From Holdemania sp. Marseille-P2844 (lineage in GTDB: Bacteria; Bacillota_I; Bacilli_A; Erysipelotrichales; Erysipelotrichaceae), in assembly GCF_900120005.1 (NCBI RefSeq), contig NZ_LT635450.1, positions 1 through 64,000 of the forward strand: a stretch of 64,000 nucleotides of DNA, given 5' to 3'. The notes below the pieces were generated by a model. That model searched no databases and was not told the origin of the DNA. It was given only the letters and a program-made list of their open reading frames with translations. A program made the position numbers and the translations under genes. Each line of letters starts with the position of its first letter. The first letter of the stretch is position 1. Positions 4,170 to 21,463 of this stretch are shown here, piece after piece.

Positions 4170-4730
4170 ATGAAAAAGAAGTCAAACAAAGAGAAAATTT
4201 TAGAACAGGTGCGGCAGCTGATCGCCGACGGGGCCTTTTCGGAGATCACAATCCGCGGAATCTGCGAACAGGCGGGGGTTTCCATCGGCAGCTTCTATCA
4301 TTATTTTCAGGCAAAGGAAGACGTGATCGTCGAATTATTCCGCAGCAACGCCCAGCGGGCGCGGGAAAACGAGCGATTGAATCTGACAAGTGCCGACGAA
4401 TGGGAAAACCTGCGGGCTTACGTTCGTTTTCAAATTTCATTCTTGGAAGAAACGTCGTTGGATCGCCTGCAGTTTCTATATGCTTACAACATCACACATT
4501 ATCAGTCAGACAGTCTGTCGCAATACCGTCAGATCGTGCGGGAGCTTTTAATCCGGGCTGCGGAAAAAGGACAGATGAAACCGGAGTACGCCGCCCAGGA
4601 GGTGCTGGATCATCTTTTTACGCTGATCCTTGGCAATTCAATCCGCTATTGCATGGAAAACGGCGATTATCCTGTCGGCGAGCAGCTGATGAAACAGGTG
4701 AATCACCTGATCACGCTGATTGCGGCTTAA
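4170..4730 (+). CDS. TetR family transcriptional regulator
   Basis: The protein has 186 residues with an N-terminal TetR DNA-binding domain (about 5-50). The recognition part ITIRGICEQAGVSIGSFYHYFQAKEDVI is typical of the family. The C-terminal ligand domain is generic, so the effector cannot be read. The chosen ATG follows a TATAAT by only 6 bases; an upstream in-frame TTG would lie before the -10 and is unlikely. It converges with the flavin reductase gene at 4811, whose promoter carries a perfect 18-bp palindrome. The likely job is repression of that gene. No copy of the palindrome is seen at its own promoter. Confidence 0.9.
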   Translation: MKKKSNKEKILEQVRQLIADGAFSEITIRGICEQAGVSIGSFYHYFQAKEDVIVELFRSNAQRARENERLNLTSADEWENLRAYVRFQISFLEETSLDRLQFLYAYNITHYQSDSLSQYRQIVRELLIRAAEKGQMKPEYAAQEVLDHLFTLILGNSIRYCMENGDYPVGEQLMKQVNHLITLIAA

Positions 4731-4743
4731 CCAGAGCACAATC

Positions 4744-4789
4744 AAAAAAAGTGAAGCAGCTTCCTTACAGGAAAAACGGCTTCACTTTT
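4744..4789. terminator. bidirectional terminator between tetR and the flavin reductase gene
   Basis: AAAAGTGAAGC (4747-4757) pairs with GCTTCACTTTT (4779-4789). A and T runs on the two sides make it usable for both convergent genes. Confidence 0.85.
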
Positions 4790-4810
4790 GTTATGACTTA
4801 CGCGCGGTCT

Positions 4811-6586
4811 TTATTTCGTTTTTTCCAAAGCGTATTGGGCGGCCTGCTGCCCCGCGATCCGGCCCATTGTAATAAACGATTGAATCGCAGTGCCGCTGCC
4901 TGGATATTCCTTATAGAACAGATCGCCGCTGCTGACTTCGCCGGCGGCATATAATCCCGGAATTACCTGATTTTGTTCGTTCACAACTTCGGCGTCCATC
5001 GTCGTCAGCGGACCGGCAAAGGTTCCGGACGTGTTCATCGTACATAAAACCGCATAGTACGGGCCTTCCTCGACCGGCTGCATCAAGTCGGCGTTTTTGT
5101 TGAAGTCTTCATCGTTACCGGCCGCGCAGAGTTCATTATACCGCTGAACCGTCTGCGTGAGTTTCTCCGGATCCATCCCGGCAGCGGCTGCCAGTTCTTC
5201 CAAGCTTGCGCCGGAATACGCAGTGCCGGCGTCCTCGGCGGCCTGAACATTCTCCGTTGCCCGGGCCGCATCCAGCAGAATGAAATATTTCGGCTGACCG
5301 GTTTGCGCCAGAACGACCGGCGTCCGGGCCGGGCGCGGCAGCGATTCGTCCATAAACCGCTGGCCGTCCAGACTGACAAACAGCCCGGCATAAGTAAATA
5401 AGTCCTGCATCGCCGCGCCAAACGGCAGAATCTGTGCGATCGCGCTGTCGTTGCCGACGATCTGCGCGCCGATTTCCCGCGCCATCAGCAAGCCGTCGCC
5501 TTCATTGCCTGCGCCGACATTGGTAATGGAATCCGCATAGGTCGGCGAATATTCTTTTTTTAATTCCGGATTGCGATCATAACCGCCGCTCGCCAGAATC
5601 ACGGCCTCCGCATGGATGAGCACGGAGGTGCCCGTCGATTGCGTGGCTTCTACGCCGACAACCTCGCCTTGTTCATTCACGATCAGTTTTTCGCCGCGGG
5701 TTTCGGTCATGATTTCCACGCCCGCTTCCTCAGCTTTTTTCTGCAGCGGCAGAATAAACCCGGCGCCGCTGCCCGCGGCTGCGTTCAAGCCGCGGTTGGG
5801 CTGCATTTTCGGGTTTGGCGTGTCGATCTGATCGGAGAATTCCACGCCGTTTTCAATCAGCCAGTCAACATTGGCGCTGGAACGTTCCGCAATCATTTTC
5901 AGTTTGTCTTCATCGACATGATGCTGGCCCAGCTCGATCAGAAAATCAGAGAACAATTTGGGGCTGTCCTCAATCCCCTGTTCGCGCTGGAATACGCTGT
6001 CCGCAGCCAGAAGCTTGCCCCCGGACAGACTGGTGCTGCCGCCCAGCACGCCCATTTTTTCAATCAGCAGTACGGATTTTGACGCCGCCGAAGCTTCAAC
6101 CGCGGCTGACAATCCAGCCACGCCGCCGCCAACGATCACGACATCGACGTCTTTTTCAATTTTTTCTTCCTTCGCGGTGGTTTCCACTTTGACATTCAGT
6201 GCGTCAATGTCCGCGCCCGCCGCCCTCAGAGCGGCTTCGCATGCCTGCAGGATCGCGTTGGATGTTTCCGTCGCCCCGGTCACCGTATCGACGCCCAACG
6301 ACTGCGTCTCCATAATCCGAGCTGGCATTTTTTCCAGCGCTGCATCGCAGATCCCGGCAGTTTCCTGATGGTCGCCGACCGTTACTGCAGTGATTTTATG
6401 GTCTTTGACCTCAACCTGAACGGCGAGCGTTCCGCCGTGGCCTTCGCCTGTTCCCGGATAAGTTCCGTCTTTGACTGCCAACAGCGGCGAAGCTGGCGCC
6501 GCTTCTGATTTTGGTGAACCGCAGCCGGCGGCGCTGAAAGTGATCGACAACGCCAGAACCGCGGTGATTGCTTTTCTGATGCTCAT
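4811..6586 (-). CDS. exported FMN-binding/FAD-dependent reductase lipoprotein
   Basis: This is a 591-residue flavoprotein of the fumarate/urocanate reductase-like class. A signal peptide ends in a lipobox with Cys22 (SAAGC), so it sits on the outer face of the membrane. Residues 38-125 form an FMN-binding domain with the flavinylation motif TVTGAT (acceptor Thr106), which ApbE would modify. An FAD domain follows, with VVIVGGGVAGLSAA at about 149-162 and a C-terminal TMGRIAG. The GQRFMDE..PR segment keeps the Arg equivalent to the proton-donor Arg of fumarate reductases. The C-terminal block reads YPGSGTAIQ instead of the usual NRLGGNA, so the substrate is probably not fumarate. Start supported by GAGGGAGG. 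Confidence 0.9.
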   Translation of the reverse strand: MSIRKAITAVLALSITFSAAGCGSPKSEAAPASPLLAVKDGTYPGTGEGHGGTLAVQVEVKDHKITAVTVGDHQETAGICDAALEKMPARIMETQSLGVDTVTGATETSNAILQACEAALRAAGADIDALNVKVETTAKEEKIEKDVDVVIVGGGVAGLSAAVEASAASKSVLLIEKMGVLGGSTSLSGGKLLAADSVFQREQGIEDSPKLFSDFLIELGQHHVDEDKLKMIAERSSANVDWLIENGVEFSDQIDTPNPKMQPNRGLNAAAGSGAGFILPLQKKAEEAGVEIMTETRGEKLIVNEQGEVVGVEATQSTGTSVLIHAEAVILASGGYDRNPELKKEYSPTYADSITNVGAGNEGDGLLMAREIGAQIVGNDSAIAQILPFGAAMQDLFTYAGLFVSLDGQRFMDESLPRPARTPVVLAQTGQPKYFILLDAARATENVQAAEDAGTAYSGASLEELAAAAGMDPEKLTQTVQRYNELCAAGNDEDFNKNADLMQPVEEGPYYAVLCTMNTSGTFAGPLTTMDAEVVNEQNQVIPGLYAAGEVSSGDLFYKEYPGSGTAIQSFITMGRIAGQQAAQYALEKTK

Positions 6587-12110: not shown

Positions 12111-13025
12111 ATGGACGTCAAAGCGTTATCCTACTACGTCGCCATCGCCGATCAGAAAAGCATCAACAAAGCGGCTGAAATTCTGTACATCAGCCAGCCG
12201 GTTTTATCCCGAACCGTTCAGGCGTTGGAAGACGAGCTGGGCGTCCAGCTGTTAATCCGCAATAATCATGGGATTGAAATGACTCCGGTCGGCCAGAGCT
12301 TGTATTATTATGCCCACAGCATTCTTTCCCAGTTTGAGGAAATCGAACGGTTAAAGAAAACGTACCACGCGGTTGTGGAAACCCGCCTGCAGGTATCAAC
12401 GGCAATGCTTCTGCTTCAGGATGCGATCGTGCAGGAATACTTCAAGTCAGTCCCCAGCGATCATGCGGTCATCAATATTCAGGAAACGGGCATCGAACAG
12501 GCGATCAAGAACGTCAGCGATCAGGGATCCGAGATCGCGATTCTGACGTTGAACTCCGTGCAGCATCGCGTCATGACCAAGGTGATCAAAGTTCAGGGCT
12601 TGCAGATGCATTCGATCAAGAAGGATGCGGTTTATGTTCATCTCGCCCAGTCGCACCCATTAGCCAGCCGAAGTACGATTACCACGTCCGAGCTGTTGGA
12701 CATGACCTATCTGCGGATGCCGCAGGATTTCTACACCCAGCTCAATTACACCTTCAAAGTTGGCGATCAGGAACTGACCAATTTCAAGAAGACCGTGACT
12801 GTTAACAATTACCACACGATGATCAATCTGTTGAAGCACAGTGATTCGTTCATGTTCGGCAACTGTTGGCAGGCCGCCGATCTCAAGAAAGGCGGCATCG
12901 CTTCCATCCCTGTGGAAACTGACAATGTCTCTCGTCATTTGGTCTGGATCGAACGCCAGCGGCATACCTTATCTAACGAAGCCAAGCTCTTTCTGGATTT
13001 GTTTTGTTCATCACTTGCGGTATAA
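12111..13025 (+). CDS. LysR family transcriptional regulator
   Basis: The protein has 304 residues. The winged helix-turn-helix is at 1-60 (SINKAAEILYISQPVLSRTVQALEDELGVQLL), followed by a linker helix and a periplasmic-binding-like effector domain. The ATG follows AGGTGAT. The neighbour across the shared upstream region is yitT, the usual target arrangement for a LysR protein. The effector is unknown. About 130 bp separate it from the exported protein gene at 13156, which has its own promoter-like region and very different base composition. Confidence 0.92.
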   Translation: MDVKALSYYVAIADQKSINKAAEILYISQPVLSRTVQALEDELGVQLLIRNNHGIEMTPVGQSLYYYAHSILSQFEEIERLKKTYHAVVETRLQVSTAMLLLQDAIVQEYFKSVPSDHAVINIQETGIEQAIKNVSDQGSEIAILTLNSVQHRVMTKVIKVQGLQMHSIKKDAVYVHLAQSHPLASRSTITTSELLDMTYLRMPQDFYTQLNYTFKVGDQELTNFKKTVTVNNYHTMINLLKHSDSFMFGNCWQAADLKKGGIASIPVETDNVSRHLVWIERQRHTLSNEAKLFLDLFCSSLAV

Positions 13026-13155
13026 CGTTATTTTACTAAGGTATATTTTCACAAAAAGCATAACCAGGCTATACTTTATTGGTATTACTCTCTCCCCTTT
13101 TTCCCCATTATAATAAAGATGTAAACATATTCTAATTAAGAGGAGGAATATTATA

Positions 13156-13632
13156 ATGAAGAAAAAAGCGATTCTTGGTTTCATGACCGGTGCGGCGATC
13201 GTCGCGGCGACCACGGGGTCTTATGCGGCGTGGGATAAATTGAGTGTTACTAATGCACATCTAATTACAATTGCTAAGCCCGTTACAGTCACGTCCACAT
13301 TATCAGGGGCTGATGAATTTAGTGTTTCAAACAACGAAGATAGTCGTGCTTTAGAGTCAGCTCCTGTATATACAGTTGAGATGCCAATTTCTGTTGAGCC
13401 ATCAAATCATGAGGTTAAATTGACTCCTTCCGCAAGTTTATCTGGTGATATTACTAATAATAACCCTACTATTGAGGTATACAAGGGGGCGGAAAAGATT
13501 GATCTTACCAAACCGATTGATGCAGGAGATTATACTATAAAAGCTGCATTTACTATGCCAGATGATGCTCCTACTAGTTTAGATGATGTAACTGCTACAA
13601 TAACAGCGACGCTCGTTCCAGCGACTAATTAG
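13156..13632 (+). CDS. exported protein with SipW-type signal peptide
   Basis: A 158-residue secreted protein begins MKKKAILGFMTGAAIVAATT and continues GSYAAWDKLSVTNAH. This resembles the signal peptides of TasA and CalY (camelysin) proteins, which end in a conserved Y-A-A-(F/W) and are cut by SipW. The mature part is Ser/Thr-rich and predicted beta-rich, with no Cys. At about 130 residues it is shorter than TasA. The sequence is clearly richer in A+T than its neighbours, hinting at separate origin. The start follows AGGAGG. A strong UUCG terminator follows, and the dedicated-type signal peptidase is the next gene. A fibre or surface role is inference. Confidence 0.75.
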   Translation: MKKKAILGFMTGAAIVAATTGSYAAWDKLSVTNAHLITIAKPVTVTSTLSGADEFSVSNNEDSRALESAPVYTVEMPISVEPSNHEVKLTPSASLSGDITNNNPTIEVYKGAEKIDLTKPIDAGDYTIKAAFTMPDDAPTSLDDVTATITATLVPATN

Positions 13633-13641
13633 TATATATTT

Positions 13642-13666
13642 AAGCCATCTTCGGATGGCTTTTTTA
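13642..13666 (+). terminator. UUCG-loop terminator
   Basis: AAGCCATC-TTCG-GATGGCTT followed by T. The UUCG tetraloop makes it very stable. Confidence 0.92.
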
Positions 13667-13727
13667 AAAGTATCTTTGATTCTAACCTGAATACTGATAA
13701 AATAGAGATAACTGCGGGGATAGTAAC

Positions 13728-14672
13728 ATGGGGACAAAGAAAAAGTGGAGAGTTAAACCGAAGATTGTAAATTGGATATTCCGATTTATATCTTTTGTTT
13801 TGTTCTGCTATATCTTGGGAATGTTGTTCTTTCCCGATACCATGATCAAACTAACCGGTTTTCAATTCTATACGGTATTGAGCGGAAGTATGGAACCGAA
13901 GATTCCAACCTATTCGCTGGTGTTGTCGAAGAACATACAATCCGATGATGAGCTGGTTCCCGGTACAATTATTACCTTCCATGCGAACCGGCTGGGGGAA
14001 GATACAGTATTGACGCATACTTTAGCCAAGACCGAAGTAGAATCGGATGGCCGGGTACGGTATTATACACAAGCCTATGCTTATGAAGGGCTGGATGAAT
14101 ATCACACATACCGGCAGGATATCGTCGGCATCTACGTCATGCACGTTCCTTTCCTGGGGAAGATCGTCTTGTTCTTACAGAGTCAGTATGCCTGGTTCAT
14201 CATTCCGATAGTGGTTGTCATCCTGTTCTTATCGTGGATCGTAGAACTGTTGATGGAGCGCAACGAACTGATCGGCAAGCGCAACGCGGATAAGTTAACC
14301 AGCGATCTGAAAGAGATCGAACAGGCTGAGTTCACCTTCGACAGCACAACCATTCAGAATTCCTTCCTTGTCGTCAAAGGACTGGTCGTTTATTCCGGAC
14401 AGTGGCAGACGCCGATCGCCCGGATCGACTTTATGAATGAGAAATATGAAATTCTCGATACGGCACTGTTGTATCTGCGGCCGAAGAAATCCAAGCTGGA
14501 GCACAAGCTGAAGTGGGTAGCGGTGGTCAAATATGACAAGAAAATCAAATATCAGGACGCTCATCTCTACTCTCTGGATTATCCGTTAAGTGAGAAAGAG
14601 AAAAAACAGCTGAAGAAAAAGATCAGGAAAGAAAATCGCATGCTGAAAAAATCCAAGTCGAGGGCAGTCTGA
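13728..14672 (+). CDS. SipW-like (ER-type) signal peptidase I
   Basis: A 314-residue membrane serine peptidase. A first membrane helix (18-37) is followed by the nucleophile in LSGSMEP (Ser54). The general base is a His (TVLTHTL, His97) instead of Lys, as in ER-type and SipW enzymes. A second membrane helix lies at about 155-178. The cytoplasmic C-terminal 130 residues are an unusual extension, charged, with a Lys-rich end. It follows the gene for a protein with a SipW-type signal, the likely substrate. TAAAAT lies upstream at about 13697, and the ribosome binding site is GGGGAT. A terminator overlaps the stop. Confidence 0.88.
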   Translation: MGTKKKWRVKPKIVNWIFRFISFVLFCYILGMLFFPDTMIKLTGFQFYTVLSGSMEPKIPTYSLVLSKNIQSDDELVPGTIITFHANRLGEDTVLTHTLAKTEVESDGRVRYYTQAYAYEGLDEYHTYRQDIVGIYVMHVPFLGKIVLFLQSQYAWFIIPIVVVILFLSWIVELLMERNELIGKRNADKLTSDLKEIEQAEFTFDSTTIQNSFLVVKGLVVYSGQWQTPIARIDFMNEKYEILDTALLYLRPKKSKLEHKLKWVAVVKYDKKIKYQDAHLYSLDYPLSEKEKKQLKKKIRKENRMLKKSKSRAV

Positions 14673-14687
14673 AAAAGACTGCCTTTT
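14663..14687 (+). terminator. terminator of the signal peptidase gene
   Basis: GGCAGTCT and AGACTGCC with a 5-base loop, then TTTT. It overlaps the stop codon at 14670-14672. Confidence 0.85.
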
Positions 14688-14714
14688 CGTTGGATTCCTG
14701 TTAAAAGCCCGGCG

Positions 14715-14978
14715 TCAGCCGGCGACTTCGTTTTCCTCCTCGACGAATTCATACATGTTCATTTCGTCAAAATCACAGAATTCAGCGATGGTCATATTAA
14801 AACCTAACGCTAATTGATGAATCGTCGCGATTCCCGGATTCTTGGTATGTCCTTTGATGATGTTCTCCAGAGTGGACGTGCTCACGCCGGACATTTCGGA
14901 TAATTTGTAGAATGAAATATTTCCTCTTTGTTTGCATAATTCCCGAATTCTATTCGATATCAATGTGACGTATTCCAT
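14715..14978 (-). CDS. small Xre-type helix-turn-helix regulator
   Basis: An 87-residue protein made of one Cro/C1-type HTH (about 5-65; ISFYKLSEMSGVSTSTLENIIKG) and an acidic tail FVEEENEV. It has no effector domain. It faces the signal peptidase gene tail to tail. Upstream at 15036-15059 is a 24-bp nearly perfect palindrome, a likely binding site. The start follows AAAGGAAGC. It could be a phage-like or plasmid-type regulator, but no partner toxin gene is next to it. Confidence 0.85.
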   Translation of the reverse strand: MEYVTLISNRIRELCKQRGNISFYKLSEMSGVSTSTLENIIKGHTKNPGIATIHQLALGFNMTIAEFCDFDEMNMYEFVEEENEVAG

Positions 14979-20555: not shown

Positions 20556-20861
20556 TTAATCAATGTTTTTGAGCACGGCCAGCTGGCGCTGAAGATCGGC
20601 GATCGTCATCTGCGAGGTGCGCACCTGTTCCAGCCAGTTTTCCACATCTTGCATCTCCCGCTCTTCTTCCCGAGCCGACACATAAGCCCGGCCAATTTCC
20701 ATGTACGCCGTATTCAACATCTCTTCCGTGGCTTTCAGCTGCCGTTTCAGTTCGATCTGGCGTTTCGTCTGATCCAGCTTGTCCTTCGCCCGCTCCGTGC
20801 CCTTTTCCGCGGCCTGCGCAACGTTCTGGACAAGCTTTTCCGCCTGTTTCTTGAAATCCAT
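20556..20861 (-). CDS. small coiled-coil protein, unknown
   Basis: A 101-residue, entirely helical and highly charged protein. Residues 5-60 are Lys/Gln/Glu-rich (AAEKGTERAKDKLDQTKRQI). A second helix at 75-101 ends in MTIADLQRQLAVLKNID, with leucines at heptad spacing. There is no signal or membrane segment. It lies 14 bases downstream of the DUF308 membrane protein gene, so the two share a transcript and may work together at the membrane in stress, which is only a guess. The start follows GGGAGG. Confidence 0.65.
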   Translation of the reverse strand: MDFKKQAEKLVQNVAQAAEKGTERAKDKLDQTKRQIELKRQLKATEEMLNTAYMEIGRAYVSAREEEREMQDVENWLEQVRTSQMTIADLQRQLAVLKNID

Positions 20862-20875
20862 TTCTGATTCCTCCC

Positions 20876-21463
20876 TTACCGGTTTTTAAAGGAAAGCATT
20901 TCGACAAACAACGCGATGCCTCCCAGTATACAATATGCCGCAATCAGCGTCGTCAGCACGATCGCCGAGCTTAACGGACTGATCAGAAAGCAAATTCCCG
21001 CGATCACCGAAAGCACGCCGCCCGCCATCGCCATGCCGGAACCCTCGACCCGAAAATAGTTCAGCTTCATCGCGTAATCAAGCTTATGAATTCCAATCAC
21101 AATCGCGCTGACGCCCAGGAGGACGGCGAACACCGTGATGACCATTTCCGCATCGGCCCGCAAAAGCAGAACTGCGATCAACAGATCGAACAGCCCGCGG
21201 ACAATCGTCAAACTTTGCCGAAACAGCGCGCTGGTTGACAGGTAATCAAGAATTTCCACGATCCCCACCAATCCGAGGATCACCGCAATCCCCCGCTCAA
21301 TCCACAGGACGACCGATTGCGGACAGAACAACAGCACGATGCCCAGCACGACCAGCGCCGCCGCCAGACCCAATCCCATCCGGCGCAGGGAACGTAATTT
21401 ACGGTTGATTTTATTCTGCATTTCATAAAAACTTTCCTGACTGCCTGAACTAAAAATAAACAT
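20876..21463 (-). CDS. HdeD/DUF308 family membrane protein
   Basis: A 195-residue protein with six predicted membrane helices (about 28-185). They come in short pairs typical of DUF308, for example LAAALVVLGIVLLFCPQSVV and FAVLLGVSAIVIGIHKLDYA. In enterobacteria HdeD is linked to acid resistance; in Bacillota the role is unknown. The ATG at 21461-21463 follows GGAGGCGG; an ATG 7 codons upstream has none. It is first in an operon with the small coiled-coil gene. Confidence 0.8.
   Translation of the reverse strand: MFIFSSGSQESFYEMQNKINRKLRSLRRMGLGLAAALVVLGIVLLFCPQSVVLWIERGIAVILGLVGIVEILDYLSTSALFRQSLTIVRGLFDLLIAVLLLRADAEMVITVFAVLLGVSAIVIGIHKLDYAMKLNYFRVEGSGMAMAGGVLSVIAGICFLISPLSSAIVLTTLIAAYCILGGIALFVEMLSFKNR

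Follow-up and report, generated by a model that had tools for sequence, protein, structure and literature searches.

In Holdemania sp. Marseille-P2844, the genes for a LysR-type regulator (304 aa; 12111..13025, + strand), a small exported protein (158 aa; 13156-13632, + strand) and a SipW-like signal peptidase (314 aa; 13728-14672, + strand) form one three-gene unit within the 64,000-nucleotide stretch of DNA that was analysed, hereafter the window. With moderate confidence, we read this unit as a self-contained surface-fibre module which is controlled by its LysR protein and exports a SipW-processed donor-strand subunit with an exchangeable body, possibly without a chaperone. The initial annotation had placed the last two genes correctly, but overlooked the LysR gene upstream as well as how extremely the mature domain has diverged. 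What is known of SipW-dependent fibres comes mostly from Bacillus and Clostridium perfringens, and among the open-licence literature no paper was found that names SipW together with Holdemania or Erysipelotrichaceae. If our reading is true, gut commensals would have such a fibre system reduced to three genes, one of them its own regulator, with a subunit family not described before and a hypervariable body. This would indicate at what small size these systems can operate, allow the need of donor-strand assembly for a chaperone or nucleator to be tested cleanly, and point to a surface structure in the human gut that is under strong diversifying pressure.

A conserved module of LysR, substrate and SipW

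The gene order LysR, substrate, SipW is the same in the window and in loci from 10 further species of the order, the matches from the same genus being those in H. filiformis DSM 12042 and H. massiliensis AP2. Across 315 genomes of the order, members of the SipW subfamily (threshold E <= 1e-30) were found in 13, and the substrate profile identified the identical 13, with a single adjacent pair in each genome. The co-conservation check proposed in the initial annotation has thus come out in favour of a dedicated SipW-substrate pair; the description as a two-gene module, however, has to be given up, because LysR belongs to it as a third gene that is likewise conserved, as is its putative operator region. 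An ortholog of the regulator (PF00126, 3e-18; PF03466, 2e-9) is located upstream in 11 of the 13 genomes carrying the pair. A profile of this LysR, run over the same 315 genomes, gave 11 matches of at least 400 bits, every one of them directly upstream in a module genome; the next-best LysR anywhere reached at most 298 bits, and the four loci examined lie neither beside sipW nor beside a substrate. Judged by its genomic context, the regulator is dedicated to the module.

Outside the order, the trio occurs in Faecalicatena orotica, Anaerovorax odorimutans, a Ruthenibacterium MAG and a Merdimonas MAG, where the neighbourhoods are unrelated, and the pair is found without a LysR directly upstream in two Clostridium genomes and two Erysipelotrichales MAGs. 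Since the flanking genes differ between genera, the trio itself is the unit. Elsewhere the module is rare: among 392 genomes of the F. orotica order one carries it, and 2 of 225 genomes in the order of the Clostridium MAG do if only clear members are counted. This patchy distribution suggests horizontal spread of the module; no relative of it was found in the phage and plasmid records searched, and the viral contigs yielded one weak SipW match. The module encodes no chaperone or second substrate, and neither a cell-wall anchor nor an accessory nucleator was found within it. A search of the same genome with the substrate profile and the signal-motif pattern likewise revealed no second substrate.

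Promoter region

The gap between the LysR and substrate genes contains a block at 13059..13088 (+ strand; CATAACCAG...TTGGTATTAC) which is conserved in ten loci and represents a putative LysR operator, followed by a -10 box of the substrate promoter, TATAAT (13109..13114, + strand), conserved across the same ten loci. The common pattern reads ATAAC-AG...AAGTATTA--CAAA and then TATAAT, with zero indels from the operator to the -10 box in all ten. The aligned upstream regions have 20 near-invariant columns, compared with 2.8 +/- 1.5 (maximum 6) in 100 mononucleotide shuffles. A good -35 box is absent, which is consistent with an activator-dependent promoter, as is usual for such promoters, and the activity of the substrate promoter may well depend on LysR.

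SipW peptidase

The peptidase comprises a first membrane segment and the catalytic part, to about residue 157 (13728..14199, + strand), and a second membrane segment with a C-terminal extension (14200..14669, + strand), the hydrophobic segments being located at about residues 12-42 and 146-179. The Ser/His dyad that had been described for it, the arrangement of SipW and SEC11 peptidases with His instead of Lys as general base, was recovered as S54 (SGSMEP) and H97 (LTHT), both invariant in 19 relatives. Matches were obtained to the SipW model NF046067 (6e-18) and to TIGR02228 (5e-13), with scores that are below the curated cut-offs (65.1 bits vs 190 and 49.3 vs 51.85, respectively); the SipW of one other member (L045) exceeds the TIGR02228 cut-off at 59.7, and the SipW profile reaches SEC11C at 8e-10. 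The SipWs of the module form a well supported clade apart from SipW of Bacillus and Paenibacillus and from the two additional peptidases of SipW type that the Holdemania genome carries. These two are encoded at G000:C16:21591-22001 (L003), beside a sortase-looking gene, and at G000:C13:105038-105520 (L002), near a gene resembling a tyrosine recombinase.

The C-terminal extension, which was reported earlier as 130 cytoplasmic residues, is present as ~138 residues of predicted cytoplasmic location and is conserved in three Holdemania species. As a part of the system it had to be rejected, because most other module SipWs end shortly past the second membrane segment, and the tails in Anaerorhabdus, Longicatena and G009 showed no demonstrable homology to the Holdemania extension. 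By its distribution, the extension is a lineage-specific addition and not a defining trait.

Both genes had also been assigned terminators of their own. The two hairpins do exist, one with a T run at 13642..13665 (+ strand, -10.9 kcal/mol) and a module terminator with a GC-rich stem and T run at 14663..14687 (+ strand, -17.0 kcal/mol), but they are no evidence of separate transcription, as the first lies inside what is an operon in relatives. The hairpin at 13642-13665 is kept in eight Erysipelotrichales members and absent where the gap between substrate and SipW is 1-31 nt, the gap being 1-20 nt in Faecalicatena, Merdimonas, Ruthenibacterium and the two MAGs. As this gap is down to 1 nt in relatives, the hairpin is most likely an attenuator within the operon. 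In sipW-bsaA, a longer transcript is produced through terminator readthrough (PMC7395162). Converging on sipW from the other side, a small Cro/C1-type regulator (14715-14978, - strand) is conserved in three Holdemania species; it is weakly similar to the SlrR model (3e-7), a match that could be due to nothing more than the HTH fold.

Substrate protein

The substrate begins with a signal peptide (13156..13227, + strand; predicted cut SYA/AWD) that is identical to that of H. filiformis in 24 of 24 residues. Its end, ...TTGSYA followed by AWDKL, shows the same pattern as that of TasA (TWA, then AFNDI). The likeness to TasA/CalY signal peptides claimed by the initial annotation therefore stands for the cut site as read by eye, but not for the profile of SipW-dependent-type signal peptides (TIGR04088), which matched control TasA proteins and none of 18 members at E of 1. 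As S-Y-A also meets the ordinary -3/-1 rule, the signal peptide would suit the general signal peptidase too; we infer that the substrate is cleaved by SipW. The mature protein is small, as had been stated (134 aa), with a content of Ser and Thr that is moderate (23%); it is free of Cys and lacks an LPXTG wall-sorting motif. In the related locus of Clostridium sp. SM-530-WT-3G (L039, about 4270-4860), the mature part of the substrate gene contains an in-frame TAA near its beginning, although sipW is intact.

The AT-richness of the coding sequence, another feature noticed at the outset, was confirmed: GC3 is 0.24 in the mature part vs 0.67 in the signal peptide (Fisher p = 7e-5), and the substrate ORF has the lowest GC3 of 61 ORFs in the window (median 0.66). 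High-expression codon bias was considered as the cause and is not sufficient, as C at third positions amounts to 0.07 in the mature part vs 0.32 in EF-Tu; at fourfold sites both are rich in T (0.48 and 0.44, respectively). The second-lowest GC3 of the window ORFs (0.33) was observed at 20560-20943 on the - strand.

No Pfam, NCBIfam or PDB sequence match was obtained for the substrate. Leave-one-out profiles recover all 18 mature domains as one family at E 1.1e-17 or better, and the bodies without the first 22 residues are still recovered at 3e-11 or better. The TasA/CalY models PF12389 and NF046066 had no match to the window substrate at E of 1 and are absent among the matches listed for the 18 member substrates, which in the Pfam scan of all members comprise the first 25 families. 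Similarly, TIGR04090 (BsaA) matched none of the 18 members at E of 1 and the controls at about 1e-5. The positive controls, TasA proteins of Paenibacillus and Sutcliffiella, match PF12389, NF046066, TIGR04088 and TIGR04090. These comparisons support a single substrate family which, at the level of sequence, is distinct from TasA/CalY (PF12389) and BsaA (TIGR04090), as the initial annotation had surmised for TasA. It might be argued that the locus is nonetheless a far-diverged TasA/CalY (camelysin) or BsaA operon, given the SipW partner, the signal peptide and a first mature strand that is TasA-like: profile comparison with TasA by hhalign gave an E of 0.0013 over 41 columns at a probability of only 18%, the aligned part being the signal peptide and the first mature residues. 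The four family models that recognise the controls and do not appear at E of 1 among the matches listed for the substrates, the separate clade of the module SipWs, and a regulator of the LysR type instead of SinR or a two-component system make such an origin improbable.

Divergence of the mature domain

Compared to H. filiformis, the signal peptide is 100%, SipW 97% and the flanking proteins 92-97% identical, whereas the mature domain is only ~33% identical. The divergent part consists mainly of a hypervariable, predicted Ig-like body (13294..13629, + strand; 33% aa identity to the sister species) with a conserved last strand, VTATL. Between the two species, dN and dS are 0.040 and 0.56 for LysR, 0 and 0.67 for the signal peptide, 0.014 and 0.38 for SipW, and 0.67 and 1.17 for the mature domain. 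The edges of the divergence are sharp, as it sets in immediately downstream of the AWD codons and extends to about 10 nt beyond the stop codon, with the terminator and the remaining gap up to sipW being identical. The dS of the mature part, although the alignment is rough at such distance, is ~2-3x that of the flanks, which speaks for an imported old allele rather than for point mutations accumulated in place.

The identity of 33% between mature bodies of sister species is similar to the level between orders (mean 30%). Two Stoquefichus genomes likewise combine 89% identity in SipW with 23% in the body; a counter-case is provided by members G261 and G259 (SipW 83%, body 79%). In the mature-domain tree, a grouping of the three Holdemania was not rejected (p 0.55), whereas that of the two Stoquefichus and Longibaculum was (p 0.025), which fits a replacement of the domain in the latter group. 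As to silent donor cassettes, no second copy was found in the own genome by protein search (E up to 10) or with the signal-motif pattern, whose two other matches do not read as signal peptides. Taken as a whole, the body has probably diversified through allele replacement.

Competition systems often combine a hypervariable cargo with a constant secretion signal. The mature domain could thus be a secreted antibacterial or diffusible effector, the bodies of sister species being 33% identical as a result of strain competition. We consider this highly unlikely, as no immunity gene adjoins the substrate, the members are true homologues of one domain and not swapped unrelated domains, and no toxin family of note appeared among the matches listed in family scans. 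Very fast diversification is also what would be expected of an exposed surface structure under selection by phages, the immune system or binding partners.

Predicted fold and N-terminal strand

Structure prediction of the mature protein had been advised in the initial annotation. AlphaFold models of the mature proteins of the window and of Anaerovorax (monomers, both from one shared alignment) have moderate confidence (pLDDT 71 and 75, respectively) and display an Ig-like sandwich with an unstructured N-terminus. In Foldseek searches, the best PDB matches to both were mostly fibre subunits: ranks 1-14 for the first model are all pilus or fibre subunits at E 0.01-0.04 (CfaB, FimG/FimA, PapA/PapE, the Sulfolobus thread and the TasA fibre), and likewise ranks 1-8 for the second, with CfaB at 7e-4 and the TasA fibre at rank 4 (3e-3). 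The pattern is consistent, though built from individually weak matches, and most of the matched proteins are donor-strand-exchange subunits. VIA-align Z scores did not exceed 6.3 and 7.5, which is too low to tell kinship from a shared sandwich arrangement, and unrelated sandwiches of the Ig-like type score just as high; thus, the fold alone is no proof of mechanism.

Conservation is concentrated at mature residues 1-20, 101-110 and 121-130, that is, at the N-terminus and the last two strands. The N-terminal segment, AWDKLSVTNAHLITIAKPVTVT (13228..13293, + strand), contains a W and a D that are nearly invariant in 18 members, has low pLDDT in both models and is a putative donor strand. In TasA, the mature N-terminus serves as donor strand and is anchored by F29 and I32 (PMC9674648), a spacing which is matched by W26-x-x-L29 of the substrate.

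Alternatively, the substrate might remain a monomer after export by SipW and act, secreted or attached to the surface, as an Ig-like adhesin or binding protein. Hypervariability would suit an exposed binding protein, and the VIA-align scores are equally good for sandwiches outside fibres, such as domains of carbohydrate-active enzymes and the GspB adhesin. However, fibre subunits dominate the Foldseek ranking for two members, the monomer models leave the conserved N-terminus of the mature protein without structure, and a wall-sorting motif that could retain a monomer is lacking. A monomer accordingly appears unlikely, albeit the most serious of the alternatives, and polymerisation by donor-strand exchange is the reading followed below.

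Proposed mechanism and comparison with known systems

What we infer, namely polymerisation, cleavage by SipW, dependence on LysR and function, would come together as follows. LysR would activate the promoter between its own gene and the substrate gene, and the leaky terminator behind the latter would set a high ratio of subunit to peptidase. The ~14-kDa subunit would be exported by Sec and cut at SYA/AWD by its own SipW, which would free the conserved N-terminal strand (AWDxLxxT...). The Ig-like sandwich would be incomplete until filled by the strand of a neighbour, so that mature subunits might polymerise head to tail through donor-strand exchange, as in TasA. Apart from the donor and closing strands, the body would diversify very fast, probably through allele replacement. 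More tentatively, it might be speculated that gut Bacillota possess in this module a donor-strand pilus of minimal make-up that needs no chaperone, is LysR-switched and antigenically variable, and in which signal peptide, donor and closing strands remain constant while the body is swapped as a cassette between strains and species.

The module resembles tapA-sipW-tasA of Bacillus subtilis (PMC9674648) in its dedicated SipW, and the substrate resembles TasA in the kind of signal peptide, in a mature N-terminus with an aromatic residue at +2 and an aliphatic one three residues on, and in its predicted beta-sandwich, TasA likewise using its mature N-terminus as donor strand. In contrast to that operon, the substrate has no family match, about half the size of TasA and a hypervariable body, TapA is missing, and LysR takes the place of SinR. 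The sipW-bsaABCRSD locus of C. perfringens (PMC7395162) is similar in providing an anaerobe with a small SipW-dependent secreted protein and in its intra-operon terminator with readthrough, and BsaA self-polymerises, in E. coli too (PMC7395162); however, bsa has two-component control, accessory genes and sipW in first position, and the BsaA profile does not match the module substrate. The sipW-tasA and calY products of Bacillus cereus (PMC4292775, PMC13082335) are also SipW-processed, sortase-independent filament subunits, but there two subunits of the PF12389 family co-assemble with a chaperone-like CapP under control of SinR. Chaperone-usher pilins (CfaB, FimA, PapA), the best Foldseek matches, share the predicted Ig-like subunit with a free N-terminal strand, yet are Gram-negative, need a chaperone and an usher, and have no sequence relation to the substrate. 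Finally, behind sipW of a Clostridium MAG (L040:5707-6963) lies the gene for a second protein, 418 aa long, with a signal peptide of the same kind and an AKWDKL start, possibly a larger subunit or a tip protein.
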